Assembly: GCA_014654705.1 (NCBI GenBank)
Contig: JACVZY010000050.1
Span: forward strand, 1-45,715
DNA from: Ignavibacteria bacterium
Lineage (GTDB): Bacteria; Bacteroidota; Ignavibacteria; Kapaibacteriales; UBA4661
Direction: 5' to 3'
DNA: 45,715 nt
Shown one piece after another: positions 1 through 40,367 of the stretch; the first letter of the stretch is position 1, and every line of letters begins with the position of its first letter. Under the pieces are notes generated by a model. The model was not told where the DNA came from and did no database searches. It worked only from the letters and a program-made list of their open reading frames with translations. Made by a program: the position numbers and the translations under genes.

Positions 1-1
1 A

Positions 2-49
2 GACTGGCTGCCGCTTTGATTGCTCTGATTTTTAACTTTTAATTGGCAT
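2..49 (+). repeat. Left copy of 48-bp terminal inverted repeat
   Basis: These 48 bases, beginning GACTGGCTGCCGC and ending AATTGGCAT, are the exact reverse complement of the last 48 bases of the window (45668-45715). Identity stops at position 50, although the next AAT again agrees. A perfect match of this length at both extreme ends is best explained by a dispersed repeat at which the assembly broke on both sides. Inverted copies of a mobile-element end or an invertible segment are alternatives. No transposase lies next to it. Confidence 0.9.
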
Positions 50-218: not shown

Positions 219-402
219 ACTGCTTGTAGTATAAATTGAGGTACGATGACGAGGCGAAGGCAGATTTCAGAGGGCAAAATTAGTGATAAGTTTTCTGCCT
301 CGCAAAAGGAAAAAAAATGTATATTTCGCCTCGCAAGCCCGTGTTCTTCCTTGTTTTTCGATGCTTTTACTCAAAGCATACCACTAACTAACTTTTACAA
401 CC

Positions 403-1611
403 ATGACTAATATTTTCGTTACTGAGCGTCTTGCTGCGATTCTTCCACGTGTGCGCGACTTTGTGCAGCAGGAATTATTTCCTCTCGAAAGCGCATATCT
501 TCACGGTTCTTTTCGGGCGCTGGAGCCAACGTTGCAAGGTTTACGCTCGCGTGTGAAGGGCATGGGCTTGTGGGCACCACATTTGCCCGTGGAAGACGGC
601 GGATTAGGGCTGACACTCACGGAATTTGGACTTTTGAGTGAAGAATTGGGACGCAGCCCGCTTGGACACTATACCTTCAACTGCCAAGCACCGGACATTG
701 GGAATATGGAACTCTTACACCAATTCGCTACGCCGGAACAGAAACATATATTTCTGGAGCCACTTATGCGCGGCGATATCCGCTCGTGCTTTGCTATGAC
801 TGAACCGGAATTTGCGGGATCGAACCCTGTAAACATGGCGACCACCGCCACTCGTGAAGGTAGCGAATACGTGATACATGGACATAAATGGTTTACCTCA
901 TCTGCCGATGGTGCATCCTTTGCCGTGACGATGGCGGTGACGAACCCTGAGGAAGCGCCGCACAAACGCGCCAGTATGATTCTCGTCCCGACCTCAACGC
1001 CGGGCTTTACACTTGTGCGGAATATCAAAATTATGGGCGAAGAGGGTGACAGCTACGCCAGTCATGCGGAAGTACGGTTTGAAAATTGCCGCGTTCCGAT
1101 AACGAATTTGCTCGGAAAAGAGGGCGAAGGTTTTGCGCTCGCACAGCACCGTTTGGGACCCGGACGGATTCACCATTGTATGCGCTTTGTGGGGATTAGT
1201 GAACGAGCGCTGGACATGATGTGCCGCTACGCAGTATCGCGTGAACTTGCCCCGGGTAAGCCCCTTGCGAGTAAGCAAATCATTCAGGCATGGATAGCAG
1301 AAAGTCGTGCGGAGATAGATGCAGCGCGGTATATGGTGTTGCACACTGCCGACGGTATTGACAAACACGGTGCTCAGGCAATGAAAGAATCTATTTCCAC
1401 GATTAAATTTTTTGTAGCAAATGTACTTCAACATGTGCTTGACCGTGCTATTCAGACGCATGGAGCGCTTGGTATCACGGACGACACGATACTTTCTTAT
1501 TGGTATCGGCACGAACGCGCTGCTCGGATTTACGACGGACCCGACGAAGTGCATAAAACCGTACTGGCAAGGACAATTCTGAAGCAGTACGGATACAATG
1601 TGGAAATGTGA
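403..1611 (+). CDS. Acyl-CoA dehydrogenase (ACAD10/11-like)
   Basis: A 402-aa FAD flavoenzyme of normal family length, predicted to oxidise an acyl-CoA to the trans-2-enoyl-CoA in the cytoplasm and pass electrons to ETF. The FAD/substrate motif MTEPEFAGSNP lies near residue 133, the WFTSS segment near 164, and GRIHHCMR is typical of the ACAD10/11 branch. At the C-terminus YDGPDEVH (377-384) replaces the YEGT of medium-chain enzymes, so Asp378 occupies the position of the MCAD catalytic Glu, as in the ACAD10/11 branch. rsmE follows after 9 nt, so the two are probably cotranscribed although functionally unrelated. Substrate chain length cannot be told from sequence. ATG at 403 gives the usual N-terminus. 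Confidence 0.93.
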   Translation: MTNIFVTERLAAILPRVRDFVQQELFPLESAYLHGSFRALEPTLQGLRSRVKGMGLWAPHLPVEDGGLGLTLTEFGLLSEELGRSPLGHYTFNCQAPDIGNMELLHQFATPEQKHIFLEPLMRGDIRSCFAMTEPEFAGSNPVNMATTATREGSEYVIHGHKWFTSSADGASFAVTMAVTNPEEAPHKRASMILVPTSTPGFTLVRNIKIMGEEGDSYASHAEVRFENCRVPITNLLGKEGEGFALAQHRLGPGRIHHCMRFVGISERALDMMCRYAVSRELAPGKPLASKQIIQAWIAESRAEIDAARYMVLHTADGIDKHGAQAMKESISTIKFFVANVLQHVLDRAIQTHGALGITDDTILSYWYRHERAARIYDGPDEVHKTVLARTILKQYGYNVEM

Positions 1612-1620
1612 GAGTAAGTA

Positions 1621-2316
1621 ATGGAATGTCTCTACGCTCCTGATATTGAACCCCACAGCACAAATGCCATTCTGACAGGCGATGAAGCCCAACACGCCCG
1701 CGCACTCCGTTTGCGAACAGGGGAGAACATAATGCTCTCCAACGGGCGCGGTTACTGTGCTGATGCAGTGGTGGAAGAAATCTCGAAGGAAGAGGTAACG
1801 TGCCGCCTTGTGCGTATTCTTCCTGAGCATGGCGAGTTGTCGTACCGAGTGACTATTGCCTTGGGCATTTTGGATAATCGTGAACGTATGGAATTTGCTC
1901 TGGAAAAAGCAATTGAGCTTGGTGCAAGCGATTTTGTGCCGCTTTTGACCAAATATAGCGAGCGTGATCGCACCAAACCGGAGCGCCTCGCCGCGAAAGC
2001 GCTTGCCGCCATGAAGCAATCGCATCGTGCGCGATTGACTCGCCTCCACGAACCAATGACCCTGCAAGCACTCCTGACGATGCTCTCTACAGAAACGCGC
2101 ATTATTCTTGCCGATACTGAAGGGCAGAAGCCTTCCCCGTACGATGCTGAAAGCATCTGTTTGTGCGTTGGACCCGAAGGCGGATTTTCGGAAGAAGAAC
2201 AAATACTATTACGGAATGATGCTCGCACTATGCTCTGGATGCTTGCGCCGACGCGCCTTCGCGCGGAAACAGCCGCATTATCGGGCTTGAGCGCACTCAC
2301 GCTGTTTCATCAATAA
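1621..2316 (+). CDS. rsmE: 16S rRNA (uracil(1498)-N3)-methyltransferase RsmE
   Basis: A 231-aa SPOUT-class methyltransferase that methylates N3 of U1498 in 16S rRNA using S-adenosylmethionine. The N-terminal PUA-like part contains HARALRLRTGE. The SPOUT core shows ELGASDFVPLLTKYSER, MKQSHRARL, the SAM-binding loop VGPEGGF (about 183-189) and the C-terminal LRAETAALSGLSAL that forms the knot. Length and motif order match the family. It sits 9 nt behind the acyl-CoA dehydrogenase and is followed by a bidirectional terminator, ending this transcription unit. Confidence 0.95.
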   Translation: MECLYAPDIEPHSTNAILTGDEAQHARALRLRTGENIMLSNGRGYCADAVVEEISKEEVTCRLVRILPEHGELSYRVTIALGILDNRERMEFALEKAIELGASDFVPLLTKYSERDRTKPERLAAKALAAMKQSHRARLTRLHEPMTLQALLTMLSTETRIILADTEGQKPSPYDAESICLCVGPEGGFSEEEQILLRNDARTMLWMLAPTRLRAETAALSGLSALTLFHQ

Positions 2317-2333
2317 AGGAAATTTATCTAGCG

Positions 2334-2382
2334 AAACGCCCGCAGAAAATCACACGTTGTTGTGCGTTTTCTGCGGGCGTTT
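2334..2382. terminator. Bidirectional terminator between rsmE and enoyl-CoA hydratase
   Basis: A 16-bp perfect inverted repeat (AAACGCCCGCAGAAAA at 2334-2349, its complement at 2367-2382) closes a GC-rich stem. A-rich and T-rich arms give a U-tract in either direction. It lies between two convergent genes ending at 2316 (+) and 2409 (-). Confidence 0.85.
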
Positions 2383-2408
2383 TGATGTTTTGACGATTCG
2401 TTTTGCTT

Positions 2409-3185
2409 TTATTGACCTTTCCAGACAGGGATACGTTTTTCCATAAATGCCTTCATGCCCTCGCGAGCATCGTCGGTGGTGAGCAGTAAGTAGAAGTTTT
2501 TACGCTCAAATTCCAAGCCCATTTCGATGCTAAGGTCAAACGATTTCAAGACTGCTTCTTTGCCTTCGCGGACAGCAATTGCTGGCATAGAGGCTATTTC
2601 TTTTGCCATCGCAATAGCTCCATCCAACCACTCGGCAGCCGGAACGATACGAGAAACCAAGCCCATATCGAAGGCTTCTTGTGCCGTGAAATTCCGTCCG
2701 GTCAAAACGAGATCCATTGTGCGGGCTTTGCCAATAGCTTTCGTCATGCGTTGTGTGCCACCGGCTCCGGGTATCAGCCCAAGTTTAATTTCGGGTTGAC
2801 CAAATTGCGCAGTTTCTGAGGCAACAATCATATCACAGAGCATAGCTAATTCACAGCCACCACCAAGTGCAAAACCGCTCACTGCCGCAATAATCGGTTT
2901 TTTGATGCCACGCATATCTTCCCACGCAGAGAAGGGGTTGCGTACCATCATCTGCACAGCCGTCGCGTCGCTCATCTCGCGTATGTCCGCGCCTGCGGCA
3001 AAGGCGCGCTCGTCACCGTGCAGAATCATGCAACGGATGTTTGGGTCGGCATCATACGCTTGCATTGCATGAAGAATTTCCGACATCGTTTTAGTGTTCA
3101 GCGCATTCAAAACCTTCGGGCGATTAAGCTGTACAGCACCAACGCCGTCGGCTGGGCTGGAAAGGATGATGTTATCGTATTGCAT
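2409..3185 (-). CDS. Enoyl-CoA hydratase (crotonase family)
   Basis: A 258-aa crotonase-fold protein predicted to hydrate trans-2-enoyl-CoA to (S)-3-hydroxyacyl-CoA in beta-oxidation. The oxyanion-hole segment AGADI is at 64-68. Both catalytic glutamates of true hydratases are present: Glu112 in GGGCELA and Glu132 in QPEIKLGLIPGAGG. This argues against a degenerate crotonase paralogue. It is monocistronic: an ftsH terminator lies upstream and a bidirectional terminator downstream. A Bacteroidota-type promoter (3257-3287) and a palindromic site (3295-3323) precede it, suggesting control by an acyl-CoA-responsive regulator (inference). Confidence 0.93.
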   Translation of the reverse strand: MQYDNIILSSPADGVGAVQLNRPKVLNALNTKTMSEILHAMQAYDADPNIRCMILHGDERAFAAGADIREMSDATAVQMMVRNPFSAWEDMRGIKKPIIAAVSGFALGGGCELAMLCDMIVASETAQFGQPEIKLGLIPGAGGTQRMTKAIGKARTMDLVLTGRNFTAQEAFDMGLVSRIVPAAEWLDGAIAMAKEIASMPAIAVREGKEAVLKSFDLSIEMGLEFERKNFYLLLTTDDAREGMKAFMEKRIPVWKGQ

Positions 3186-3256
3186 AAAACGGGAAAATGT
3201 GTGGGGTGAAACAGAATGAGTAATGAAGTCAGAATCCTGATAGAATCAGGGTGCTG

Positions 3257-3287
3257 CGAAGTTAGTAAAGAATATATCCTTTGCAAA
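3257..3287 (-). promoter_or_regulatory. Candidate promoter of the enoyl-CoA hydratase
   Basis: Reading the minus strand, TTTG (3284-3287) is followed after exactly 19 nt by TAACTTCG (3257-3264), one mismatch from the Bacteroidota -7 consensus TAnnTTTG. The implied start site is about 65 nt upstream of the ATG at 3185. Confidence 0.5.
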
Positions 3288-3294
3288 AGAAAAA

Positions 3295-3323
3295 GTTGAT
3301 ATGTCAACAAAAAACATATCAAC
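3295..3323. promoter_or_regulatory. Palindromic operator candidate (GTTGA-N4-TCAAC)
   Basis: The site GTTGATATGTCAAC (3295-3308) is itself a dyad. It is nested in a larger inverted repeat, GTTGATATGT (3295-3304) against ACATATCAAC (3314-3323). It abuts the -33 element of the enoyl-CoA hydratase promoter. The same 5+5 dyad occurs upstream of phaE at 40500-40513. Size and symmetry suit a TetR- or MarR-type dimer; no such regulator gene is in the window. Confidence 0.45.
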
Positions 3324-3350
3324 TATATTGAGAGACGTTCACCTTCCAGC

Positions 3351-3390
3351 GCAAAAAACAAGGCAACCACTCTCTTGGAGTGATTGCCTT
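3351..3390 (-). terminator. Rho-independent terminator of ftsH
   Basis: The inverted repeat AAGGCAACCACTC / GAGTGATTGCCTT (3360-3390, one mismatch) forms a stem with a short loop. Minus-strand transcription reads a run of Ts just after it (3352-3358). It lies about 55 nt past the ftsH stop. Confidence 0.8.
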
Positions 3391-3444
3391 GCAAATTACC
3401 CTGCGAAATGCAAGGCGATAGAAATTTATCAAGGAGCCTATAGG

Positions 3445-5565
3445 TTACACCGTCGGTGGCGTAATTTCAGGCTTCTCAGAGCCATTGTGCGGTGCGGCGG
3501 TTGCCGGATCGTCGGGAGCAACACCGTTGCCATTTTTTGCCGTGCCATATGGCACTCGTTTTTCGCGTGTAGAAGGTGGTAGTTCCTCGCCACGCATAAT
3601 CATATCTAGTTCTTCAGCGTCAAGAATCTCACGCTCAAGCAGGACTTTTGAGGTCTTGTGGAGCATTTCGATATTCTCGCGCAAGAGTGCTTCTGCTTGG
3701 TGCATGGATGTTGTGACAATACGGCGAATCTCGTCGTCAATGATACGCGCTGTTTCGTCGCTAAACTGACGAGGATGCGCCATTTCGCGGGCAAGGAAGA
3801 CTTCTTCGTCTTTGCTGGCAAAGTTCAGCGGTCCGAGTTTCTCGCTCATTCCCCATTCGCAGACCATCTTGCGAGCAAGCATTGTTGCACGTTCGATGTC
3901 GTTGCCTGCACCGGTTGTAAGCTGATTGAAAACGATTGTCTCGGCGGCACGCCCGGCGAGCAAGGTAATAAGACGCGTTTCGAGGTAATCTTTCGAGTAC
4001 GTGTGAGCGTCTTCATTGGGAACATATGAGGTAACGCCGAGCGCACGACCGCGCGGAATAATTGTAACCTTGTGAACGGGGTCGCTGTACGGAAGAAGTT
4101 TCCCTGCAAGCGCGTGTCCCATCTCGTGATACGCAGTTACTTCTTTCTCTTTTTCGGAAATAACCATACTTTTCCGCTCAACGCCCATCAGAATTTTATC
4201 TTTTGCGCTTTCGATGTCGTCCATCGTTACAAAATCTCTATTCTTGCGAGCGGCAAAAAGAGCGGCTTCATTCATCAAATTCGCAAGGTCAGCACCGGAA
4301 AGTCCCGGCGTACCGCGTGCAACAATTTCCAAATTCACATCCGGCGCGAGCGGAATATGACGGGCATGAACTTTCAAAATGCCTTCGCGTCCGCGTACAT
4401 CGGGGCGATCAACGACTACTTGGCGGTCGAAGCGTCCCGGTCGCAAAAGTGCAGGGTCGAGAACATCAGGGCGGTTCGTGGCTGCAACAACGATAATACC
4501 GATATTCTGCTCAAAACCGTCCATCTCGACAAGAAGCTGATTGAGGGTCTGCTCACGCTCATCGTGTCCGCCGCCTAAGCCTGCACCGCGATGGCGACCA
4601 ACGGCATCAATCTCATCAATAAAAATGATACACGGAGCGCTGCGTTTTGCTTGCTCAAAAAGGTCGCGCACACGGCTTGCACCCACGCCGACGAACATTT
4701 CCACGAAGTCCGCGCCGGAAATGGAGAAAAACGGTACGTCTGCTTCGCCAGCAATTGCTCGGGCAAGAAGAGTTTTGCCTGTGCCCGGAGGTCCGAGCAT
4801 CAGAACGCCATGGGGAATTTTACCGCCCAAGCGTTGGAATTTATTGGGGTCACGAAGGAATTCGATAATTTCTTCAAGTTCATATTTTGCTTCGTCCGCA
4901 CCAGCTACGTCTTCAAAGGTCACGGTCTTTGCGTTTTCATTCATCAGACGCGCACGGGCTTTGCCGAAGGAGAAAATACCACGTGTGCCGCCCGGTCCGC
5001 CTCCGCCGCCCTGCATCCGGCGCATGACAAAGAAGTAAACTCCAATCAAGATAAGCCACGGCAAGAAGGAAATGACCATACTCAACCAAGGGCTGTCGCC
5101 TTCTTCGTAGCGCCAGACGATACCTTTATCCGCCCAAGCCTTCTCGGTCTCGGAATCCAATACGCCCAAACGTGTGAAAAAGCGCTGTACTTCGACTTGT
5201 CCTGTGCCATTAGGCTTCAGGATGCTTACTTTCTCACGCAGAACACCGTGAAAAACAAAGTCATTAAGCTGCGATTTAGAAATTGTTGCCGATTCGATTT
5301 TCCCTGCTTCGAGGAATTGTTTGTACTCGGTGTAGGTAACGGACACTTCCGATTGCTGTCCGCTACTGACGAGCATATACATTACGACGACAAAGCCGAA
5401 AATGAAGAGCCATATCATCGCCGTTTTCATGACTTTGCCTGCTGGGGATTCGTCATTATTGTTATTGCGCAAACCCTTGAGATTATTCTTGTTATCACGG
5501 TTTTGCGGGCGATTCGGCTTTTTCGGCTCGCTGTTGTTCGTGTTTTTGCGTTCATCAGCTGCCAT
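3445..5565 (-). CDS. ftsH: ATP-dependent zinc metalloprotease FtsH
   Basis: A 706-aa membrane-anchored AAA+ protease that extracts and degrades membrane and unstable cytosolic proteins. The N-terminus has an Asn/Lys-rich cytosolic leader of about 45 residues, two transmembrane helices (about 47-67 and 160-180) and a periplasmic loop between them. The AAA module follows: Walker A GPPGTGKT (about 258), Walker B IIFIDEID and the second region of homology [20 protein letters not shown]. The zinc site HEMGH lies near 479. The C-terminal 50 residues are Pro/Asn-rich and probably disordered. It lies downstream of hpt and tilS, a widely conserved arrangement, and ends at its own terminator. Confidence 0.97.
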
Positions 5566-5806
5566 TCTGTTCTCCTTTGGAGCGCTGTAAGCGTCAGGAA
5601 ATCGTGCTTACAAGCGATGAGTGAAAGACGAAAAGTTGTTATTTTACTTCGATTGATGTTGCTTTGCAAAGGGGGAGTGCAAATGAAAAATTTACACGTT
5701 CCTGAGTTTTTGTTTTGGTACGAAATCGCACAACTCTTACTGTTCCTTGTACACTACGACGACAGTAGAGCGAAAAACGTTTGATGATGTCTGGTGAGAG
5801 ATGACC

Positions 5807-6364
5807 TTACGGGGTTTCGTGCAGGATATAGACATCAGCGAGATTGCGTCCGAGTTCGTTGTAATCTAGCCCATAGCCGACAATAAAGAGCGGCGAAATT
5901 TCAAACCCTACGTAATGTGTTGATACCGTACCTTTGCATACTTCGGGCTTCAGGAAAAGCGTTGCGATTTTAAGTGATGCGGGGTTCATTTCTTCGAGAT
6001 GTGCAAGAATTTGTTTGACCGTCAAGCCTGTATCAACAATATCTTCGAGAACAATGACGTGCTTGCCGGTCAAATCCATACCTGTATAATGCGTTACGTT
6101 CACCTTGCCCGACGAGTGCATACCCGTACCGTAGCTTTCAGCGCGTATGAATTCGAGTCTGCACGGCAGATTAACTTCACGAATGAGGTCGGTTGCGAAA
6201 AGAATACTGCCTTTAAGTACTACGACGAATACTACCTCGCTTGCATTGTAATCCGACGTAATCTGAGCACCGAGACGCTTGACTGCATCGTGGATTTGCT
6301 CGCGGGTAATAAATTTTTTGAAATGCTTATCGTGGAGTTCCAGAATATCGTTGTTACTCATCAT
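5807..6364 (-). CDS. hpt: Hypoxanthine phosphoribosyltransferase
   Basis: A 185-aa type I phosphoribosyltransferase that salvages hypoxanthine (and probably guanine) with PRPP to make IMP/GMP. VVLKGS (48-53) is the pyrophosphate loop and VIVLEDIVDTGLT (103-115) is the PRPP-binding motif with its two acidic residues. The start is ambiguous between the two leading Met codons. It lies between tilS and ftsH; the 240-nt gap to ftsH leaves room for a separate ftsH promoter. It complements the adenine deaminase at 27.1 kb, whose product hypoxanthine is the substrate here. Confidence 0.95.
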   Translation of the reverse strand: MMSNNDILELHDKHFKKFITREQIHDAVKRLGAQITSDYNASEVVFVVVLKGSILFATDLIREVNLPCRLEFIRAESYGTGMHSSGKVNVTHYTGMDLTGKHVIVLEDIVDTGLTVKQILAHLEEMNPASLKIATLFLKPEVCKGTVSTHYVGFEISPLFIVGYGLDYNELGRNLADVYILHETP

Positions 6365-6414
6365 CGTCGTTAAAAGAATGTGATTGTGTACTGTTCGTGT
6401 AAACGCTTGTTTAG

Positions 6415-6422
6415 CAAAATTA
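6415..6422 (-). promoter_or_regulatory. Candidate -7 element upstream of hpt
   Basis: On the minus strand TAATTTTG matches the Bacteroidota TAnnTTTG element perfectly and lies about 50 nt before the hpt start. No convincing -33 TTTG is seen at the expected distance, so this is a weak call. Confidence 0.3.
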
Positions 6423-6454
6423 GTGTGTTGTGTGGGTGCTAGACACCCGCCACG

Positions 6455-8962
6455 CTATATTTTTTCTTGGGGTGGAGCGGGAAGAACAATTCCTTTTGGG
6501 CGGCGGAACTCCAACCGCAGTGCTTTATGGGCATCGGGCGGAAGGCGAAATTGATCGCTCAAACGCAAGCCACAAAGCCATATTACTTGCTCTCCTTCGG
6601 GCATAGCAGCAGTGAGTACCAAAATATTTTGACGGTTAAAAAAGGAAATTTTAGAGTTGGTAAGGTAATCACTTACTTTCATTGTCCCCTTCATTCCAAG
6701 CGGCGTGAAGACATCTCCGGGTTGCCACGTGCGGAGCGTCATACGATATGGCAGCGCGCGGGTATCGAGAAATTCGACCGCAGGGTCGGCGGTGAATTTG
6801 ACATTTTTTCGGTCAATTTCCTCTAAAATAATCTGCCAGCCGCCAAAATCATAGCGATTGTTCTTCTCCACACGGACGTTGATATTATGCACTCCGGGGG
6901 CGGGCGAAAGTAAAATTGCCGTGCGGTCGCGGAGCGCAATAAAACCCCGCATGACATCTACTTTTGCACCTACTTCGGCGTCCACAAGCGACAGGACTCT
7001 ATCAACGGCATCAAAGCCAAGAGCGAGACCAAAACGGCGCTGCACCACACGGCGAACCATTTCTGTCTGCAAAAAGCGCTTCTGTACACGGAGCGCCGTT
7101 ACCGTCAGACCAATGTACGGCTGAAATTCATCTTCCACTAAAGCGGTTGGCAAAGCACGTTCCACTGCGTCGCGTACGATATCCTCCGCACCCGAAATAA
7201 TCTGCGATGTACGGTGCAACACATCAACAATGCCTGATGAATACTCACGTTCCAGCAATGGCAGAAGTTCATTGCGAATTTTATTACGACGAAAAACCGA
7301 CTGTGAATTGGAAGAATCCTCGCGCCATGACAAACCACGAAGCGTTGCGTACTCTTGAATCTCAGTTTTTTTCATACCTAGAAGCGGACGCAGCAATTTG
7401 GTGTGTTCGCCAAAAGCACGTTGCGCAGGAATACCGGAAAGCCCCGTCAGACCCGAACCACGTAGCATATTCATCAGCACGGTCTCAACCGAATCGTTCA
7501 GCGTGTGTGCCGTCAAGACGGCATCAGCACGGCGTTTGTAGGCGACAAATTCTAAAAATTTATAGCGTAATTCGCGTCCTGCTTGTTCGAGAGTCATACT
7601 TTGAATCTCCGCAAAGCGCTCTACATCTGCCCAAGCGATGTAGCAAGGAACGTCGTACCGCTTACACGTCTCGCGGACAAAATTGGCATCATTGTCTGAT
7701 TCTATGCCACGCAGACGATGGTTAAAATGCACTACGGCTACTTGTACTTGTCGCTTTCCGCTCATGAGGGCATTGTTCCGAGCAAGGCACATCAGCATAT
7801 CCAAAAGAACAATCGAATCCACACCACCGCTTACGGCGACGACTACTTCTGAACTTGCGGGCATCTCGGCTTCGTAGCGCAAGACATTCTGAAGGCGCTC
7901 GTGAAAGGTCTTCAGAGCCGTAGGCATGGTTTCAAAGACAGCATCAATGGGTACGGCAGCCGGATAAACTCGTTCCTGGCGGTTCGGAAAGCGTTGCATA
8001 CCGCGACGTGCCTGTGTGTCGGCGGGTCTGTGCGGATTGGGCGCATACATTTTGAAACCGATAGCCGGATGCAAATCGACACCAGGCGGGCGAGGCTTTT
8101 CCGATGACTTGGGGCTAGGCACATAACGCCCACTATTGCGGGCGATGAGAACTTCTTGTATAGTCTCAATAATGTCGCCGAAAGGACTTTTCACATGGTC
8201 GGGCTCGTCGGGCAATTGCACTCTGCGAGCAGGTTTTGGCACAGGAGTACCTTCTTCACCTGTCTGGTCGCCGACGCTACGAGCGTGGCGTGTGCGGGCT
8301 GGCGTGAGCGCTTGCTTGGGAGTAAGTTCCGCACCGCTTGCCGTTTTCTCTTCTCCGTCTTGGGAAATGCGCATTGGCTGCGGAATAGTCTGCGTCTGGC
8401 GTTCTGCCACATATCGCATGAGAGCTTGTTCCATCCGAACGCTGTACAAAGTATCGCTTAGAGACGCTTCGGAAGCGGGATGGAGATACAGATGTTCATT
8501 CTCCAGCGTCGTAAACGATGCGGGAAGCTGAGGAGTAAAGGGATTGACGGGGATAATGCGACTTTCTGCCTGTGGTTCAGGACGATGCTCTACCCGAGAT
8601 TCTGTGCGCTCTCTGGGCGGCGTGGTGCGTGGAGTACGAGACGGTGAACTTACACGAGACGTACGCCCACCACGTGGCGAGTCGGGACGGAAGCCTTGTC
8701 GAAAGTTATCTCGCGGAAAATTGTCGCGTGGAAATTCATCCCGTGAGGGAGAGCCATGCGAAGCGCTGTTGCGCGAAGCATTACCGGTGGGCGAATCGGT
8801 GCGCCCCTGGTTACTGCGCCGTATATTAGTATTAGGGCGTGGCGCAGTGCTGCGTGGCGGATTACCGCGTGGGGTACCATGACTGCCGGAGTACGGCGTT
8901 TCGTCAAAACGGGAGCGCCCCGAAGTGCTTGATTGCTGGGGGCGTGAGGGTCGTCGTGCCAT
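6455..8962 (-). CDS. tilS: tRNA(Ile)-lysidine synthase TilS with long disordered N-terminal extension
   Basis: The 835-aa product carries TilS in its C-terminal part. The ATP PP-loop SGGVDS lies near residue 377, followed by HFNHRLRG, RELRYKFLE, AHTLNDSVETVLMNMLRGSGL and RPLLGMKK, then the C-terminal TilS substrate domains. TilS converts C34 of tRNA-Ile2 to lysidine so that it reads AUA. The first roughly 340 residues are not part of any TilS I know. They are rich in Arg, Pro, Ser and Asn with short repeats such as RDNFPRDNF, and are predicted disordered. The extension is a single open frame with no stop. An internal ATG at 7927 (MPTALKTF) would give a normal-sized enzyme and cannot be excluded as the true or a second start. 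The neighbours hpt and ftsH are classical TilS partners. Confidence 0.9.
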   Translation of the reverse strand: MARRPSRPQQSSTSGRSRFDETPYSGSHGTPRGNPPRSTAPRPNTNIRRSNQGRTDSPTGNASRNSASHGSPSRDEFPRDNFPRDNFRQGFRPDSPRGGRTSRVSSPSRTPRTTPPRERTESRVEHRPEPQAESRIIPVNPFTPQLPASFTTLENEHLYLHPASEASLSDTLYSVRMEQALMRYVAERQTQTIPQPMRISQDGEEKTASGAELTPKQALTPARTRHARSVGDQTGEEGTPVPKPARRVQLPDEPDHVKSPFGDIIETIQEVLIARNSGRYVPSPKSSEKPRPPGVDLHPAIGFKMYAPNPHRPADTQARRGMQRFPNRQERVYPAAVPIDAVFETMPTALKTFHERLQNVLRYEAEMPASSEVVVAVSGGVDSIVLLDMLMCLARNNALMSGKRQVQVAVVHFNHRLRGIESDNDANFVRETCKRYDVPCYIAWADVERFAEIQSMTLEQAGRELRYKFLEFVAYKRRADAVLTAHTLNDSVETVLMNMLRGSGLTGLSGIPAQRAFGEHTKLLRPLLGMKKTEIQEYATLRGLSWREDSSNSQSVFRRNKIRNELLPLLEREYSSGIVDVLHRTSQIISGAEDIVRDAVERALPTALVEDEFQPYIGLTVTALRVQKRFLQTEMVRRVVQRRFGLALGFDAVDRVLSLVDAEVGAKVDVMRGFIALRDRTAILLSPAPGVHNINVRVEKNNRYDFGGWQIILEEIDRKNVKFTADPAVEFLDTRALPYRMTLRTWQPGDVFTPLGMKGTMKVSDYLTNSKISFFNRQNILVLTAAMPEGEQVIWLCGLRLSDQFRLPPDAHKALRLEFRRPKGIVLPAPPQEKI

Positions 8963-9099
8963 TCGTTATAGGTGTTGTGCGGCGAGTAAGTGTGAGGAAG
9001 TATCAGATGAAGCACACTGTTTTAGTAAAAGCAATCCTTGGCGCGGAGGAAATTCTCTGCGGCGCGACCGAGCGCACAATTGCTGGCTCCATGCCTACC

Positions 9100-10137
9100 T
9101 TACATCGCCATTGCGTGTTCTGCGTATTCTGTGAATTCTGCTGAAGATTCTTCAGCGTCTTGGCGTTCCGAAAGCTGCGCATGATAGAGCCAAAGTCGCT
9201 CTTCTACCTGTGCAAAACTATCATAACGCATGATATCGCGGCGGACAGATGAAGCATCGTAAAGACCCTTCAAATAGCCACTGTAAAACTTTCTAAATTC
9301 CCGCACTGCCAGTCCCTCGCCTTTGAACGCCACCGAATGACGTAAATGCTGCAAGCAGAGATCAATGCGCTCTTGCAGACTAGATGGAGCTTCAAGTTCG
9401 CCAGTACGAAGATAGGTTTTTGCTTGGCGAAAAATAAATGGATTGGTAATGGCTGCTCTGCCAATCATTACCGCATCACAACCCGTCTCATTAAAGGCAC
9501 GCTGGCAATCTTCAGGCGTATTCACGTCGCCATTCAGGATAATGGGGATGTTCACGGCGTTTTTCACTTTTTCCACCCACGTCCAGTCGGCTGCACCCTC
9601 ATGCCCCATATCGCGTGTACGGCAGTGAATCGCCAGCGCTGCAATTCCTGCTTCTTGCTCCAACCGCTTTGCCAAATCAACAATGATAATGGAGTTTTTG
9701 TCCCATCCAAGCCGTGTTTTGACTGTTACCGGCAGTTCAACGGTATCAACAAGGGTTTTTGCCATTGTGACCATCGTATCGGGTTCTTTGAGCAATGCCG
9801 CACCCGCGCTACGAACGACCACGTTTTTTACCCAGCAACCGCAATTGATGTCAATAAAATCGGGTCCCGATGCCTCTGCAATAAGCGCGGCTTCTTTCAT
9901 CACGTCCAAATTTCCGCCAAAAATCTGGATGGCAACCGGGTGCTCGTCCTCGTGAAGGGTGAGCTTTTTAACGGAACGCCCTGCATCCCGTACCAATCCT
10001 TCGGAGGAAATAAATTCAGTATAAACAATATCTGCACCCAAGGCACGGCAGAGTACGCGAAACGGTAAATCGCTCACATCTTCCATTGGCGCAAGCAGTA
10101 CGCCTTGTTCAACTTCAACAGTTCCTATTTTCATCAT
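9100..10137 (-). CDS. dus: tRNA-dihydrouridine synthase (DusB-like)
   Basis: A 345-aa FMN enzyme reducing uridines to dihydrouridine in tRNA. Family motifs are APMEDVSDLPFR (15-26), the active-site segment INCGCWVKNVV with Cys101, GAALL, the TIM-barrel segment ILNGDVNTPED and the FMN phosphate site MIGRAAITNPFIF. The residue after the catalytic Cys is Trp102 where most Dus enzymes have Pro. Start is either of two tandem ATGs (10137 or 10134). It is divergent from queC across 170 nt and could head an operon with tilS (137-nt gap). Confidence 0.93.
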   Translation of the reverse strand: MMKIGTVEVEQGVLLAPMEDVSDLPFRVLCRALGADIVYTEFISSEGLVRDAGRSVKKLTLHEDEHPVAIQIFGGNLDVMKEAALIAEASGPDFIDINCGCWVKNVVVRSAGAALLKEPDTMVTMAKTLVDTVELPVTVKTRLGWDKNSIIIVDLAKRLEQEAGIAALAIHCRTRDMGHEGAADWTWVEKVKNAVNIPIILNGDVNTPEDCQRAFNETGCDAVMIGRAAITNPFIFRQAKTYLRTGELEAPSSLQERIDLCLQHLRHSVAFKGEGLAVREFRKFYSGYLKGLYDASSVRRDIMRYDSFAQVEERLWLYHAQLSERQDAEESSAEFTEYAEHAMAM

Positions 10138-10307
10138 TTTTCGGTAAATTGTCAGGGTAGAACGCAGTTATATTCAGGGTACGCTCAGAGAAAGTAAGCA
10201 TTCAAACGGCGTTGTGGCAATTTTCTTTGCCTTTTTAGACTGAAAAACCTACGTTTCTTGCTAAAACTATCAAACACCAAAGATACAAAAACTTCCCGTC
10301 TTGACGA

Positions 10308-11021
10308 ATGAATAAATCCAATACCAAACCTGAAATAAAGCCTCTCGCTGTTGTTCTCCTGAGCGGCGGCATGGATTCTGCCGTGTGCGCTGCCATTGCT
10401 CATGCGGCAGGCTATGAAATTGCGGCGCTGCATCTGAACTATGGACAGCGCACACAAGAGCGCGAACTTCGGTCATTTCACACAATTGCAGATTTCTACG
10501 GAGTAGAAAAACGCCTCGCGGTGGATGTAACCCACTTTGCGGCAATAGGCGGTAGCAGCCTCACCGACACAACCATCGAAGTTTCGAGTGCGGATTTGGC
10601 AACAACCGCCATCCCGACCAGCTATGTTCCCTTCCGCAACGCAAATATTCTGGCGATTGCGGTGAGTTGGGCGGAAGTGCTGAGCGCAAAGGCACTTTAT
10701 ATCGGCGCTGTGGAGGAAGATGGGAGCGGCTATCCTGATTGCAGGCGTGAATTTTACGAGGCATTCCAAAACGTCATTGATGCCGGCACAAAGCCTGAAA
10801 CGCGCATTACGATTCACACGCCCGTCATCACATTTTCCAAAAAAGATATTGTCTTGAAAGGCGCTGAAGTAGGTGCTCCGCTCCATCTGACGTGGAGCTG
10901 CTACAAGCGCAACGACGTGGCTTGCGGGGAGTGCGATTCGTGCGCCTTGCGCTTACGTGGCTTTCAGCTTGCCGGATTGGATGATCCGATTGAGTATGCG
11001 GTGAAGCCTGATTATCAGTGA
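10308..11021 (+). CDS. queC: 7-cyano-7-deazaguanine (preQ0) synthase QueC
   Basis: A 237-aa ATP-dependent enzyme converting 7-carboxy-7-deazaguanine and ammonia to preQ0, the step before QueF in queuosine synthesis. The PP-loop SGGMDS is at 19-24. The structural zinc site is Cys198, Cys206, Cys209 and Cys212 ([15 protein letters not shown]). The gene stands alone between the divergent dus gene and the convergent efflux operon, and no other queuosine gene is in the window. I looked for a preQ1 riboswitch in the 170-nt upstream gap and saw none. Confidence 0.95.
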
Positions 11022-11085
11022 GAAGACTACCCCAATAAGCCCCAAAAATGCTCCACCACTCGTTTTTTTTTGTGGCATTGCGCCT

Positions 11086-12366
11086 TCAATGCTGGTGTCC
11101 GCCACCCGCGCCGCCGCGTAACTGCCGCTCCGAATCCAGCAAAAATCCGCCGCTTGCCACGACTTTTTCTCCCTCAGATAGCCCCGACAAAATCTGCACT
11201 TTGCCGTCAAACTTTGCTCCCAGAGTTACGTGCCGCGCCTCAAATTTGTTCGTTTCGCCACGCACCTGTACCCAAACGATGGATTGCTTGCCCGTTACCA
11301 GCACCGCATCATTGGGCACAGTTAAGCCTGTGCCTCCATTGAGCGTGAATACTGTTTCGGTGTACATTGCCGGACGCAGCCTCCCATGAGGATTCTGCGT
11401 TTCAATACGAACTTTCACCGTGCGTGATTCTGCATTCACAACGGGGTAAATAAACGCTACGCGCCCTTTGAAGGTTTCGTTAGGATACGTCTGTATTCTG
11501 AGAGCAACCGATTGACCAATCTTCACCGCCGCCACGTCGGTTTCATATAGTTCCGCCAAATTCCAGAGCGTGGATAGATCGGCAATTTCAAAAAGCGGTG
11601 CGCCAATGTTCACATACGTTCCCTCTACGACTTTTTTCTCTATTACCGTACCGCCAGATGGCGCATACATGGTGGTTGTTATCGGTGTCTCTCGCGTTTG
11701 TTCAAGCGTTTGCACCTGTTCACTTGTCATGCCCAAAATCATGAGGCGCTGTCTTGACTGTTCGACAATCTTCGACCCCGCACCACTGCTCAAACTTGCC
11801 AATTGCTGATTCTTTACGGCAAGGATAAATTCCGTTTGTGCTTGCATAAGTTCGGGGCTGTACAAATCAAAAAGACGCTGCCCTTTGCGAACGGTCGTTC
11901 CCGACTGGTTCACATACAGTTTTTCAATCCGTCCTGCCACGCGGGCAGTGATACTACGGCGGTTCTGCTCTGCGAAATCCAGCGTTCCAATGGCAGTAAT
12001 GGTACGGTGAATTGGTTCACTTTGCACTATTGCTGTTTGTACGTCCGCCAATACGCGACTTTGACCCGTAACGACAAGCTCGCCCATCGTATGTTCTGCG
12101 TGAGGATTTTCCTCTGAAGAGTGTCCTTCGTGTGAATCGTCAGCATATTCTTTTGCTTCGGGGCTGTTTTCCAACACCAAATCCATCTGACAAATCGGAC
12201 AGATACCTTCTTTGTCGGAGATAACATTTGGATGCATTGGGCAGATATATTTGACGGGCTTTGCAGCTAGTGTAGCGGTGGAATCGTTGTGTCCCGTGTG
12301 CTGTGCAGTTTTTTGTGAACACGCAGCAAAGCTCAGGAATAGAATGGCAATGATGAGGTGTCTCAT
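11086..12366 (-). CDS. cusB: CusB-type efflux adaptor lipoprotein with heavy-metal-binding domain
   Basis: The 426-aa periplasmic adaptor (membrane fusion protein) of the RND pump, joining CusA to CusC. A lipoprotein signal ends at Cys16 (LSFAAC). Residues 39-64 form a heavy-metal-binding domain with the pairs CPMHP (42-46) and CPICQM (56-61). The usual CPxCGM has become CPICQM. After a His-rich linker come the HlyD barrel, an alpha-helical hairpin (about 150-215) and beta-barrel segments such as GTYVNIGAPLFEIADL. It is the last gene of the cus set and ends with a His-containing tail (GGGHQH) that might bind metal. A palindromic element separates it from cusC. Confidence 0.92.
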   Translation of the reverse strand: MRHLIIAILFLSFAACSQKTAQHTGHNDSTATLAAKPVKYICPMHPNVISDKEGICPICQMDLVLENSPEAKEYADDSHEGHSSEENPHAEHTMGELVVTGQSRVLADVQTAIVQSEPIHRTITAIGTLDFAEQNRRSITARVAGRIEKLYVNQSGTTVRKGQRLFDLYSPELMQAQTEFILAVKNQQLASLSSGAGSKIVEQSRQRLMILGMTSEQVQTLEQTRETPITTTMYAPSGGTVIEKKVVEGTYVNIGAPLFEIADLSTLWNLAELYETDVAAVKIGQSVALRIQTYPNETFKGRVAFIYPVVNAESRTVKVRIETQNPHGRLRPAMYTETVFTLNGGTGLTVPNDAVLVTGKQSIVWVQVRGETNKFEARHVTLGAKFDGKVQILSGLSEGEKVVASGGFLLDSERQLRGGAGGGHQH

Positions 12367-12380
12367 AGTTGTAAAGATTT

Positions 12381-12440
12381 GGAGTGCGGAATATTAATTC
12401 CGCAATTGTTGAAAAAGACGGAATTATAATTCCGCACTCC
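12381..12440. repeat. Island palindrome element, copy 1 (cusC/cusB gap)
   Basis: The left arm GGAGTGCGGAAT-ATTA-ATTCCGC and the right arm ACGGAAT-TAT-AATTCCGCACTCC flank a 14-nt A-rich centre. Each arm is a small palindrome and the whole element is a larger one. It lies 11 nt after the cusC stop and 15 nt before the cusB start. Confidence 0.9.
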
Positions 12441-12450
12441 GGTTGAAAAA

Positions 12451-13809
12451 TTATCGTAGGGGTTCGCCAAGAAGAAGTTCAAGCTGCGCCAGTGCAAGGT
12501 GATATTGCTCGCGCGCCATAAGCACATCATCGCGCTTCATCAGCAGCATCCGCTCAGTGTCCAAAAGCTCGCTAATACTCGTTTGCCCAGATTGCAAACC
12601 CGCAAGCTGCGCGTCGAAGGTGCGTTCGTAGAGCGGAATGACGGTGCTTTCAAGGATTTCTGCGGTTTGCGCAGCAGTTTGCATTTTTTGAAGCTGTTCT
12701 TCCATTTGCGCGGACAGCATGAGGGTCATGTTCTCGCGCTCCAACGTCTGTGCTTGCGTTATAGCGGCGAGTTCTTGCGCTTTAGCGGTGTACTTGGCAG
12801 ACGACCACGGCGCGAAGGGCAGCGTGATTTGCGCCATGAGGCTATACATAAAATCCGGTGAGGCATTTGGCGCACGAACGATATATGCAAATGGTGATTC
12901 CAGCGCACCTGTGAAGAGTGTTGAGTTTGCTGTAAGCGTCATGCCTTGAGGCATTCGCATAATCATTCCTTGCAGCATTACGTCCGGTATTGCTTCTTTT
13001 TCGACGGAAACGCGCTCCGCTTCAGTCATGGCAATCATGCTATTCATGCGCCTGAGCGTTGGGTTCGAGACTGCAAGTGCTTGAAGGCGTTCCCGTGCCT
13101 GTGTTTCCGTAAAACGGCGTTCTGCAAGGACGGGGGTAATTTCAAAAGAATTTGTGTTTGTGCGTCCTACAAGCGCAGCGAGCATGGAAAGTGCTGTTTT
13201 GCGTTCATTGCCAAGCGTGGTTTGTTTCAGGAGCGCGAGGGATTTTTCCGCTTGCAGACGCAGCACTTCGGCGTAGGAAAAGCGTCCCGCCTGCACCTGT
13301 GAGGAAGCCACTTCAATCGAACGCTCCAAAACGGTCGCGGTGCTGGCGTAAATCTCGCGCTGCCGGTCAATGCGCCACAGCATCGTGTACGCAGTCGTGA
13401 TATCCGAGCGGAGTTTTGCGGCAAATTCTTTTGTGCGCTCTTGTTCGTTTTTTACTCGCGACCGCTCCATATCTTGCATTGCATCAAGTTTTCCGCCCAA
13501 CATAAACATTTGTGAGGCGTAAAAATTGTTCGATAGTGCGCCGTTCACAATGTTGAAATTACCGACTTGTACTTGTTCTACCGACACTCCCGCTTGCGGC
13601 GGCGGCAATGCACCTGCGGCTTGAGTACGATGCTCGGCAGCTTGGACGGTGAAAGCATAAGCGCGAAGCTGCGGGTTGTTTCGCATTGCTTCCGAGATCA
13701 AGGAATCAAGTGGCTGTGCTACTATTGGTCTGATTACAAATAGAGAGCAGCAGAGCGCGAGTATGAGAGCAAAAAAGGTTCGCATATTTATGGTATTGTT
13801 AATTCTCAA
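12451..13809 (-). CDS. cusC: TolC/CusC-type outer-membrane efflux protein
   Basis: A 452-aa outer-membrane channel component of the metal efflux pump. A Sec signal peptide precedes mature AQPLDSLISEAM (cleavage near residue 31). The body is long amphipathic helices with the duplicated outer-membrane-efflux-protein pattern typical of TolC, including ADKDM-like alpha-barrel segments and QTSISELLDTERMLL near the C-terminus. A second ATG at residue 9 (13785) gives a more conventional signal peptide. cusA ends 33 nt upstream, with no palindrome element in that short gap. Confidence 0.88.
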   Translation of the reverse strand: MRINNTINMRTFFALILALCCSLFVIRPIVAQPLDSLISEAMRNNPQLRAYAFTVQAAEHRTQAAGALPPPQAGVSVEQVQVGNFNIVNGALSNNFYASQMFMLGGKLDAMQDMERSRVKNEQERTKEFAAKLRSDITTAYTMLWRIDRQREIYASTATVLERSIEVASSQVQAGRFSYAEVLRLQAEKSLALLKQTTLGNERKTALSMLAALVGRTNTNSFEITPVLAERRFTETQARERLQALAVSNPTLRRMNSMIAMTEAERVSVEKEAIPDVMLQGMIMRMPQGMTLTANSTLFTGALESPFAYIVRAPNASPDFMYSLMAQITLPFAPWSSAKYTAKAQELAAITQAQTLERENMTLMLSAQMEEQLQKMQTAAQTAEILESTVIPLYERTFDAQLAGLQSGQTSISELLDTERMLLMKRDDVLMAREQYHLALAQLELLLGEPLR

Positions 13810-36788: not shown

Positions 36789-37187
36789 TCAGACGCGCAC
36801 TGTCGCTTCACCTTCGATAACAACTTCACCCCTACTATTTGTTCCGGTAATTTTCAGCGTTACAATCGGCTTCCCTTCTACGATTGAAGCCACTTCTACA
36901 CTTGCTGTTACTTCGTCGCCAATAAAGACCGGACGCAGAAACTTCACTGTTTGTCCCATAGCAATAGTGCCCTCGCCCGGCAAATCCATGCCGATAACGC
37001 CTGAAAAGAGACTAGCCACGAGTGCTCCGTGGACAACGCGCTGCTTGAAAATAGTATTTTTTGCATATTCAGCATCGAGATGAATCGGGTTCTTGTCAAG
37101 AGAGATTGCGGCAAATTGTTGTACGTCCTCTTCCGTAAAGGCTTTGGTAACGCTGGCTTTATCGCCGATTTTAACTTGTTTTGGCAT
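36789..37187 (-). CDS. phaJ: MaoC-family (R)-specific enoyl-CoA hydratase (PhaJ-like)
   Basis: A 132-aa single hot-dog domain that hydrates trans-2-enoyl-CoA to (R)-3-hydroxyacyl-CoA. The hydratase-2 motif is complete: FAAISLDKNPIHLDAEYA with Asp31 and His36 as the catalytic dyad, followed by QRVVHGALVASLFSGVIG. Placement 130 nt downstream of phaC strongly suggests it supplies monomers to the PHA synthase from beta-oxidation intermediates. ATG 37187 gives the usual N-terminus MPKQVKIGD; longer frames to 37289 lack family similarity and cover a hairpin. Confidence 0.88.
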   Translation of the reverse strand: MPKQVKIGDKASVTKAFTEEDVQQFAAISLDKNPIHLDAEYAKNTIFKQRVVHGALVASLFSGVIGMDLPGEGTIAMGQTVKFLRPVFIGDEVTASVEVASIVEGKPIVTLKITGTNSRGEVVIEGEATVRV

Positions 37188-37319: not shown

Positions 37320-38441
37320 TTAGACTTTCGAGCGCTCTAAAATCCAGCTGGAAATAGCCGGAGCAACATATTTCTGCGACTGACCGCTCATGAACACGCC
37401 CACGTGTCCGCCCGGGAACTCTACCATTTGCTTGTCTTTCGAGCCAACAGCATCATAAAGGGGCTTTGCACATTCCGGCGGAACAAGGTGGTCTTGTGCA
37501 GCATAAATCGAGAGGACAGGCATTGTTACTTTCTTGAAATCTACTTTGCGTCCGTCAATGTCATACTCATTTTTCGAGAGTTCGTTACCGATAAAGACAC
37601 GCTTGGTGTATTCGCGGTACGCCTCGCCTGGTTGACCGGGGCTATCGAACAACCAACGCTCCATGCGGAGAAAGTTTGCCACTTTTTCTTTGCTGTCCAT
37701 GATATTGACAAAGGTGTGGAATTTTTGGAGGCGCTGCATTGGCTTCACCATGAGGAAGCCAGCATTCATCACTTCGCCGGAGATAGTACCAACGGCATCG
37801 GCAATGGGGTCGGGATTCACATGCTGTGCCCATTTGAAAATGAGGCTGTCCGGCAAATTGAACTCGAATGGCGTTACGACCGTAACAAGATTGCGTATTT
37901 TTTCGGGGAAGAGTGCAGAATAGATAAGTGCGCTTGTGCCACCCTGACAAATACCAAGCAAATTTACGCTTGGCTGCCCCGACGTTTTGCGCATATAGTC
38001 AATGCAAGAATCAAGATAATCCACATAATCCCCGACTTCACGATAGCGGTCGGCGCGTGTCGGGTAGCCCCAATCTATCGTATAGACATCGAGACCAGCA
38101 TCCATCATCTTTTTGACAAAACTTTTGTCCGGCTGCAAATCCAGAATATATTCTTTATTCACGACCGCAAAATTGAGCAGGAGTGGCACTTTGCAGGTGG
38201 CGTTGGGGTTCGGATAGTGATAGAGTTTAATTTTACCACCATCCACATCCAGCACCTTCACGCGGGGCGTTTGTCCAACGGACAAATCATCTTCAGTCAT
38301 TTCTTTCAGATGCTGCAAGCCGCGGACAACCTTGCTACTCATCTCGGTCATATCTTTCATAAACTGTCCGGGTTCAAGAAACGGGATTGAGCGCTTGTCC
38401 GCCGTTTTGGCGCTACCGTTCTTTTCTGCTGTTTGTGCCAT
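37320..38441 (-). CDS. phaC: Class III PHA synthase subunit PhaC
   Basis: A 373-aa alpha/beta-hydrolase that polymerises (R)-3-hydroxyacyl-CoA on the granule surface together with PhaE. The lipase-like box LLGICQGG carries the nucleophile Cys (about 164). The Asp lies in AAQDHLVPPE (about 316) and the His in GGHVGVFMSG (about 346). The class I/II N-terminal domain is missing, which defines class III. Its substrate preference is expected to be short-chain. The order on the minus strand is small coiled-coil gene, phaC, phaJ; phaE lies further upstream in its own unit. Confidence 0.95.
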   Translation of the reverse strand: MAQTAEKNGSAKTADKRSIPFLEPGQFMKDMTEMSSKVVRGLQHLKEMTEDDLSVGQTPRVKVLDVDGGKIKLYHYPNPNATCKVPLLLNFAVVNKEYILDLQPDKSFVKKMMDAGLDVYTIDWGYPTRADRYREVGDYVDYLDSCIDYMRKTSGQPSVNLLGICQGGTSALIYSALFPEKIRNLVTVVTPFEFNLPDSLIFKWAQHVNPDPIADAVGTISGEVMNAGFLMVKPMQRLQKFHTFVNIMDSKEKVANFLRMERWLFDSPGQPGEAYREYTKRVFIGNELSKNEYDIDGRKVDFKKVTMPVLSIYAAQDHLVPPECAKPLYDAVGSKDKQMVEFPGGHVGVFMSGQSQKYVAPAISSWILERSKV

Positions 38442-38493: not shown

Positions 38494-38709
38494 TCAATTT
38501 AAGGACTGCCATGTTCCTGTTATGCCTTTGACGGTATGCACGGTCGTTTGAGGCGATGCGGCCGCACGACGCTTTATCATGCGCTCAAATCGGCGCTCTA
38601 CGTGCTCTAAACGAGTGTTGATTTCGTGCAGCATAGCATTTGCCTGCTCTTGCCCGGAAAGAATTCTTTCCAGCAGCGTCAGTATTCGTTGCCCTTGTTC
38701 TTCAGTCAT
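38494..38709 (-). CDS. Small coiled-coil protein between phaE and phaC
   Basis: A 71-aa protein starting MTEEQGQRILTLLERILSGQ. Heptad-like hydrophobics run from about residue 5 to 45 (ILTLLERIL, ANAMLHEINTRLEHVERRF), followed by a basic segment (ERMIKRRAAA) and a polar tail. I recognise no family. Short amphipathic coiled coils are typical of phasin-like granule proteins and of the PhaE C-terminus, and its position 52 nt before phaC suggests a PHA-granule role (inference). ATG 38709 is preferred over 38766. A phaE terminator lies upstream, so it probably has its own promoter. Confidence 0.65.
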   Translation of the reverse strand: MTEEQGQRILTLLERILSGQEQANAMLHEINTRLEHVERRFERMIKRRAAASPQTTVHTVKGITGTWQSLN

Positions 38710-38927: not shown

Positions 38928-40367
38928 TTATTTTTTAGCTGCGGGTTTCTTTGCGGGAGCTTTTTTTGCGGGAGCTGCTTTTGCTGCGGGTGCTTTGGAA
39001 GCAACTGTTTTTGGTGCAATCGTAGCAGTAGCGGCTTTCGGAGCGGCGGCTTTGGAGGCAGCTGCTTTCGGTGCGGGTTTGCCACCAAGCGTTTCGATTG
39101 CTTCTTCTTGCTCGGCAAGTTTGCGCTCCAAGCGGCGTACTTGCGTTTTGAGGAAGTGGATGGATTGGTACGCTTCGTCCAATTCGGAGCGTGTAGCAAT
39201 TGGGAGTTCGCTAATCATCAATTCAATAAACTTATCGGTCTGCTCTTTGACGCGAGCACCGGAAACAGAGAGTTCGCCTTGCAATTTGGCATATTCATCT
39301 TTATTGAAGAGAATATCGAATGCTTTTTCGCTGGAACCAACAAAGATGTGGAAGAATTCGTCGAAGGTGCGCGGTGCTTTTTCTGCTTTTGCTTGCTCAA
39401 TGATATAGGTGGTCATGTTCGTCAAGGCATCTTTACCAGTCGAAAAGACCATTTGTTGCATTTTGGTGTAATGAGCAGCAAAGAGAACGTAGGATTTAAG
39501 CATTTCTTGAAGCAGCTCAATCGCAACGCGGTCACGTCCGAAGAAAACCATGTTGGTAAGCGGGTTGACAGGCTTTTGCATATTGTCAATCATCTTCACA
39601 TACAATTTCGCAGCTTCATCCACGTTACCCGAAGCGAAGGCTGACATAGCTTTGGTGGACATTTGGGTAATGTCACCAACGCTTGTACCGGCAATTTGAC
39701 CGACATCACCCAAATACTTGACAAGAGTGTTGATTTGGTCGGTAAATTTTTTCATGGTCTCCTCAGCTGGGAAGCTGAAGGTTTGCGAGATGATTTTGTT
39801 GTATTCATCAAGGCTGAGATACTTCTGAAGCATTTCCGCCGTCAAGCCCGTATCCTGAGCCATTTTGATAACAGGCGACATCAGCTCGGAAAGTTTGAAA
39901 TAGGTTTGTGCCATGGTGGTCAGGTTATTTACCGCACCGACGACCACGCTCCCGTTATTGACCATATCCGACATTGCAGCCGGAACCCGACCCATGGCAC
40001 CCATCCATGAGCTGTACAGATTTTTCCATGTATCATAAAGCGAGGTAATATTGCCCATGAAGGCAGGCATGCTAGCAAGATTACCAATGCTACCGAGATT
40101 GCCGATATTCGGAATCATATTGAACGGGAATGATGAGGACTGCTTTGCATCATCGCCCATACCACCGATATTCGCAAATCCGGTGAAGGAGCTACCGGTA
40201 TTGCTAAGCGTCGTTGCCACGGTGCCCGCAAGGTCGCCAAGCATCGTAGAGATATTATTCGTAATGTTGTTTGGTAGCACTTCGCCTGCTGCATCTGCAG
40301 CTTTTTTGACGACTTCCATTTGCATATTGAGGAGGTCGGTAAAGATATTGCCGCTTGTAGTAGCCAT
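38928..40367 (-). CDS. phaE: Class III PHA synthase subunit PhaE with histone-H1-like C-terminal tail
   Basis: A 479-aa partner of PhaC. The N-terminal part is helical and Asn/Gly/Ser-rich (NIFTDLLNMQMEVVKKAADA, about 8-27; FPFNMIPNIGNLGSIGNLAS). The PhaE core contains YDTWKNLYSSWMGAMGRVP. The C-terminal PhaE signature has FDILFNKDEYAKLQGEL and the coiled coil ELDEAYQSIHFLKTQVRRLE. The last roughly 50 residues (from about 430) are an Ala/Lys/Pro repeat (KAAAPKAA, KAAPAKKAPAKKP) like the PhaF/AlgP/histone-H1 tails that bind DNA. ATG 40367 follows a CGGAG ribosome site; the longer frame to 40451 would overlap the promoter. Confidence 0.92.
   Translation of the reverse strand: MATTSGNIFTDLLNMQMEVVKKAADAAGEVLPNNITNNISTMLGDLAGTVATTLSNTGSSFTGFANIGGMGDDAKQSSSFPFNMIPNIGNLGSIGNLASMPAFMGNITSLYDTWKNLYSSWMGAMGRVPAAMSDMVNNGSVVVGAVNNLTTMAQTYFKLSELMSPVIKMAQDTGLTAEMLQKYLSLDEYNKIISQTFSFPAEETMKKFTDQINTLVKYLGDVGQIAGTSVGDITQMSTKAMSAFASGNVDEAAKLYVKMIDNMQKPVNPLTNMVFFGRDRVAIELLQEMLKSYVLFAAHYTKMQQMVFSTGKDALTNMTTYIIEQAKAEKAPRTFDEFFHIFVGSSEKAFDILFNKDEYAKLQGELSVSGARVKEQTDKFIELMISELPIATRSELDEAYQSIHFLKTQVRRLERKLAEQEEAIETLGGKPAPKAAASKAAAPKAATATIAPKTVASKAPAAKAAPAKKAPAKKPAAKK

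Follow-up and report, generated by a model that had tools for sequence, protein, structure and literature searches.

A Lys/Ala/Pro tail on the class III PHA synthase subunit PhaE of Kapaibacteria is a candidate nucleoid anchor

The nucleoid tethers of storage granules named in the accessible text of PMC13052382 are PhaM, PhaF, PhaH and AlgP. PhaM of Ralstonia eutropha, also described in the available part of PMC3556143, has a PAKKA motif that is reported in the accessible sections of PMC11352279 to attach PHB granules to the nucleoid, and the protein activates PhaC1 (PMC13052382, same extract). PhaF of Pseudomonas putida consists, according to the portion of PMC5658603 at hand, of a granule-bound N-terminal part and a positive C-terminal part with eight AAKP-like repeats and non-specific DNA binding, and AlgP of Pseudomonas aeruginosa has a predicted disordered, KPAA-rich C-terminal domain required for storage-granule spacing (PMC9239181, available sections). 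In a literature search with thin coverage of subscription papers, followed mostly as listings, no description of a PhaE with a nucleoid tail came up.

In class III synthases, PhaE and PhaC are located together on the growing granule. The window analysed here, 45,715 nucleotides of a contig of an Ignavibacteria bacterium (JACVZY010000050.1), encodes a 479-residue PhaE on the minus strand (38928..40367), in a frame whose translation has no internal stop. The assignment rests on PF09712, which scores 83.7 bits against a cut-off of 25.7 over residues 110-413; TIGR01834 gives 67.5 bits, below its stricter cut-off of 154.95, and its match ends at residue 422. The class III catalytic subunit gene phaC (37320..38441, 373 aa; TIGR01836, 383.3 bits, cut-off 365.3) lies 3' of phaE on the same strand, followed by a MaoC-type hydratase gene (36789..37187, minus strand; PF01575, 78.3 bits) whose product possibly supplies monomer. 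A search with PhaC gave five named relatives, all MAGs of Candidatus Kapaibacterium or Ignavibacteria with identities of 79-96%.

Between phaE and phaC lies a 71-residue ORF (38494..38709, minus strand) without a family above cut-off, which might encode a small synthase partner. ORFs with the same TWQSLN end occur in 7/13 related loci (L008, L009, L010 and L015-L018), some of which are copies of one genome. At one of these, L018 (positions 1-13089, from the MAG Prado071), the small ORF precedes phaC and tblastn with PhaE gave no match within the 13 kb locus. The window genome also has a second phaE (L002 195-2886, contig C118) of about 24% identity to the first; this second PhaE has only a short basic end, and its gene adjoins an ORF judged by eye to be phaC-like.

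The C-terminal Lys/Ala/Pro tail of PhaE spans residues 426-479 (38931..39092, minus strand, by translation; stop codon 38928-38930). An earlier note on this DNA had described the last 50 residues as Ala/Lys/Pro repeats, and the count agrees, with 22 Ala, 13 Lys, 8 Pro, 3 Thr, 2 Ser, 1 Ile, 1 Val and neither Asp nor Glu. Its coordinates, 38928-39081, cover approximately these 50 residues and the stop, and the basic tail begins slightly earlier, near residue 426 (base 39092). The tail is therefore no part of the described PhaE family, whose models PF09712 and TIGR01834 stop at residues 413 and 422, respectively. The AlphaFold model (18 sequences, mean pLDDT 45) has a helix at 393-427 and then coil, at low confidence throughout, and is too poor to prove that the tail is disordered. 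A true HC2 histone was rejected as an identity for the tail: PF07382 reaches 15.5 bits on residues 425-479 against a cut-off of 40, and the genome search with this model found no match at E ≤ 1.

The composition of the tail is extreme among the ORFs sampled from this genome. As background we took 2059 ORFs of at least 70 aa, called by length and overlap alone, from 2.32 Mb (about 41%) of the genome, in non-random stretches picked by contig. The K+A+P count of the last 50 residues averages 9.3 (sd 3.4), and the 43 of PhaE is the highest. Five ORFs reach at least 25, namely PhaE, SucD (42), UvrA (34), a protein that matched nothing in Pfam (30) and RsfS (28), with SucD, UvrA and RsfS identified by Pfam.

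Two adjacent PAKK[AP] motifs, PAKKA then PAKKP, occupy 38943..38972 on the minus strand (pattern matches 38944-38957 and 38959-38972). Both fall within the C-terminal end KAAPAKKAPAKKPAAKK, the most conserved part of the tail, and two such motifs arose in 145/20000 shuffles of the tail letters. PAKK is present in PhaE of the window and of loci L015, L016, L017, L005 and L007, and is missing from the PhaE tails of L006, L003 and L004, that is, from 3/9 genomes. As a DNA pattern, PAKK[AP] has 28 matches in this genome versus 9 for the reversed control. Of nine that were looked up, six fall in stop-to-stop frames shorter than 50 aa. Two more are internal to longer frames (155 and 172 aa) and not near their ends, and the ninth is 13 codons short of the end of a frame of 304 aa. 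The motif alone is thus non-specific. An earlier DNA pattern, SCNAARSCNSCNAARSCN, was uninformative, with 17 matches versus 18 for its reversed control and the UvrA tail as the sole tail among the loci.

Other proteins of the lineage end in similar tails. The succinyl-CoA ligase alpha subunit, SucD (L049 12650-13891, minus strand), has a 76-residue Lys/Ala/Pro tail, and such SucD tails, 54-87 residues long with a net charge of +11 to +19, are found in 9/10 family genomes; in this genome the SucD tail differs from that of PhaE in lacking PAKK and in that its lysines are mostly single. The ribosome silencing factor RsfS (L091 9829-10698, minus strand) ends in roughly 180 residues with much Lys, Ala and Thr. 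In each of the seven of ten genomes where the search motif caught it (all except G003, G008 and G009), RsfS has a tail, 112-183 residues long with a net charge of +5 to +28. UvrA (L187 7088-10300, plus strand) has a Lys-rich C-terminal tail, and the protein without a Pfam match (L194 15459-16553, plus strand) a Lys/Ala/Pro tail containing PAKK. This spread over SucD, RsfS, UvrA and the Pfam-less protein suggests a portable polycation and does not imply granule tethering; a reading of granule segregation from the tail alone is not supported.

The same motif also occurs on a nucleoid protein. In G000, PAKK[AP] matches on contig C95 (4963-4976 and 4981-4994) lie in frame behind an HU domain (C95:5013-5282). 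An in-frame pair follows the same HU protein in all eight genomes with listed matches (G000-G007; G008 and G009 are not among them), with starts 18 bases (6 codons) past the domain for the first motif and 36 or 42 bases past it for the second, as judged from motif positions and 14-base matches. A further HU-family protein is encoded in each genome, and in G000 none of the 28 listed PAKK[AP] matches lies on its contig. One real nucleoid protein of the genus therefore bears the motif of PhaE, with two in-frame copies in each, the difference being that HU is itself a DNA-binding protein. The resemblance to DNA-binding tails on which the earlier note had remarked is thus borne out, by the PAKKA reported for Ralstonia PhaM and by the doubled PAKK[AP] on HU.

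Set beside the described tethers, PhaE comes closest to PhaM of R. eutropha (Cupriavidus necator), which, as far as the accessible sources describe it, shares a C-terminal PAKKA and association with a synthase. The comparison is with the published description of PhaM, which is a phasin-like protein of its own that activates a class I synthase, and not a subunit of a class III enzyme as PhaE is. PhaF, in the available text, is a phasin with AAKP-like repeats, whereas PhaE is a synthase subunit with a PAKKA cluster. AlgP, again from partial text, acts on polyphosphate granules through a repeat region of 154 aa, as against about 50 in the PhaE tail. PhaE has one weak phasin-model stretch (TIGR01837, 15.7 bits, E 0.012, cut-off 94.7) that does not place it in PHA_granule_1. 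Neither TIGR01837 (PHA_granule_1) nor PF09361 (Phasin_2) has a match in any of the ten family genomes, which leaves no sign of another tether from either family; a tether unrelated to them, for example of the PhaM or PhaH families, which lie outside the models used, may be present.

The basic end of PhaE is a property of the family. PhaE scores above cut-off in 9/10 family genomes, the tenth, G009, being 70% complete, and in all nine the window-type PhaE ends in a Lys/Ala-containing basic tail with 19-43 K+A+P per last 50 residues. Long tails have 41-43 (G000 43, G007 43, G003 42, G008 42, G006 41), two genomes are intermediate (G004 29, G002 26) and two lower still (G005 20, G001 19); the second PhaE, present in five genomes, has 16-19. 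The tails of PhaE, SucD and RsfS in G005 are rich in Ser/Thr rather than Ala/Pro and are still net basic, which suggests that charge, more than the Ala/Pro spelling, is kept. In these comparisons L024 (G155) was excluded as below the family cut-off, and the pairs L010/L015, L008/L016, L009/L017 and L003/L019, whose printed PhaE tails are identical and which are apparently the same genomes, were counted once by genome.

The comparison of PhaE ends covered the family, the phylum and plasmids, with Gammaproteobacteria and Cyanobacteria, including Allochromatium vinosum, outside it. Among 395 genomes sampled from the phylum, nine have a PF09712 match, eight of them above cut-off, and the four above-cut-off PhaEs from outside the family have short basic ends with a K+A+P of 12-14. 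Plasmids were represented by thirteen records that match PhaC. In seven, PhaE lies beside PhaC (one annotated as a hypothetical protein) with a K+A+P of 4-15; these come from Rhizobiales and haloarchaea, and six of the seven have no tail, a short basic end occurring in Bosea alone. Five haloarchaeal plasmid records have no PhaE beside PhaC, and a Priestia plasmid encodes a class IV PhaR with 20 K+A+P per 50 and a net charge of +3. The window PhaE as query gave no match on plasmids at E ≤ 0.01 and none on viral contigs; a PDB search returned five matches at E ≤ 1, none named PhaE, the best being a designed repeat protein (E 0.0005). An expansion peculiar to this strain, which would have undone the proposal of the earlier note, is rejected by the basic tail in 9/9 family genomes with PhaE and by the lysines retained in close orthologs.

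This retention was examined against L015, the closest distinct ortholog. The core of the protein has a dS of 0.92 and a dN of 0.023; for the tail, dS is 1.54 and dN 0.114, the dS values being approximate for so short a stretch. Substitutions in the tail are confined to exchanges between A, S, T, P and V, the aligned lysines are kept in 12/12 cases, and the last 17 residues are identical in protein with 7/51 bases different. Neutral simulations, 5000 runs per rate under a single indel-free HKY-like model whose parameters were assumed, kept on average 4.8, 2.5 and 1.3 of 13 lysines at rates of 0.5, 0.92 and 1.5 substitutions per site. The highest numbers kept were 11, 9 and 6, and the observed retention was never reached. 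Between L016 and L017 the tail shows no amino-acid substitution, one gap and a dS of 0.08. On these comparisons, the tail lysines are under purifying selection between close orthologs. At larger divergence tail dN rises to 0.235 (window versus L016), 0.317 (window versus L005) and 0.324 (L006 versus L007), and in these pairs, whose alignments are uncertain, single aligned lysines change; the lysine total stays at 13 in the tails of the window, L015, L016, L017 and L005.

We propose that the tail is a PhaM-like nucleoid anchor carried on a synthase subunit. Of the readings considered this one ranks first; we judge it about evenly poised, with anchoring likely rather than established. The tail would be a disordered polycationic extension of PhaE that binds DNA non-specifically through its lysines, above all those of the conserved C-terminal PAKKA block. 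The active synthase complex, and hence the nascent granule, would thereby be held at the nucleoid, and granules would be spaced and shared between daughter cells, as by PhaM in Ralstonia. The conservation of the tail, its PAKKA motif, the matching motif pair on HU and the lack of a TIGR01837 or PF09361 protein, all read from sequence, point this way. Against it, SucD bears a similar tail with no evident reason to bind DNA, the K+A+P count is only 19-20 in 2/9 genomes, PAKK is missing in 3/9, the second PhaE has a short basic end, the second HU-family protein has no PAKK[AP] on its contig, and single lysines shift at larger divergence. The next-ranked reading, less probable and held tentatively, is that the tail is a general-purpose polycation found on several unrelated proteins, which binds any polyanion (RNA, ribosomes, polyphosphate or DNA) or acts as a solubility bristle and has no part in granule placement. 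The five ORFs sharing such tails within 2.32 Mb, the recurrence of SucD tails in 9/10 family genomes and of RsfS tails in the seven of ten read, and the Ser/Thr-rich yet net basic tails of all three proteins in G005 count in favour of this reading. It is weakened by the rarity of such ends (5/2059 ORFs with a K+A+P of at least 25) and by the single-lysine, PAKK-free tail of SucD, unlike that of PhaE; UvrA (PF17755) and HU (PF00216) belong to DNA-binding families, which fits DNA as one target.

Two further readings confine the tail to the enzyme or deny it a function. That it works inside the synthase, where its charge would matter for steering PhaE oligomerisation, PhaC activation or contact with the granule surface, seems unlikely to us. 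Its position directly after the helix predicted at 393-427 in the low-confidence model would suit such a role, as would the short basic ends on four PhaEs from elsewhere in the phylum and the K+A+P-rich end of the Priestia class IV PhaR; length and spacing vary, however, while composition is kept, a pattern more in line with a non-specific polycation than with a shaped interface, and six of the seven Rhizobiales and haloarchaeal plasmid PhaEs do without a tail, with a short basic end in Bosea. A neutral low-complexity expansion by replication slippage is very improbable. Tandem units of 15 and 18 bases, short but detectable, do occur in the tail DNA, and close orthologs differ by indels of four to five residues, yet synonymous sites have diverged strongly with the lysines kept, to a degree that the neutral maxima fall short of.

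If the tail is indeed an anchor, the suggestion of the earlier note that synthesis and chromosome attachment are joined in one protein would hold in so far as the tail sits on a synthase subunit. Its novelty is reduced: PhaM already combines synthase activation with DNA binding, which makes PhaE a variant and not a new principle. A broader proposal, which we regard as doubtful, is that the class III synthase of Kapaibacteria anchors itself to the chromosome via PhaE and that the same PAKKA/AKP tail is a lineage-wide tag gathering SucD, RsfS and a repair protein around the HU-coated nucleoid. With similar tails on SucD, RsfS and UvrA, the question widens to whether such tails are a localisation signal or a generic polycation. 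None of the tethers named in the accessible text of PMC13052382 (PhaM, PhaF, PhaH and AlgP) is a synthase subunit. A tether inside PhaE, if true, would let a class III synthase be placed without the help of a separate phasin, and would be simple to test in E. coli.
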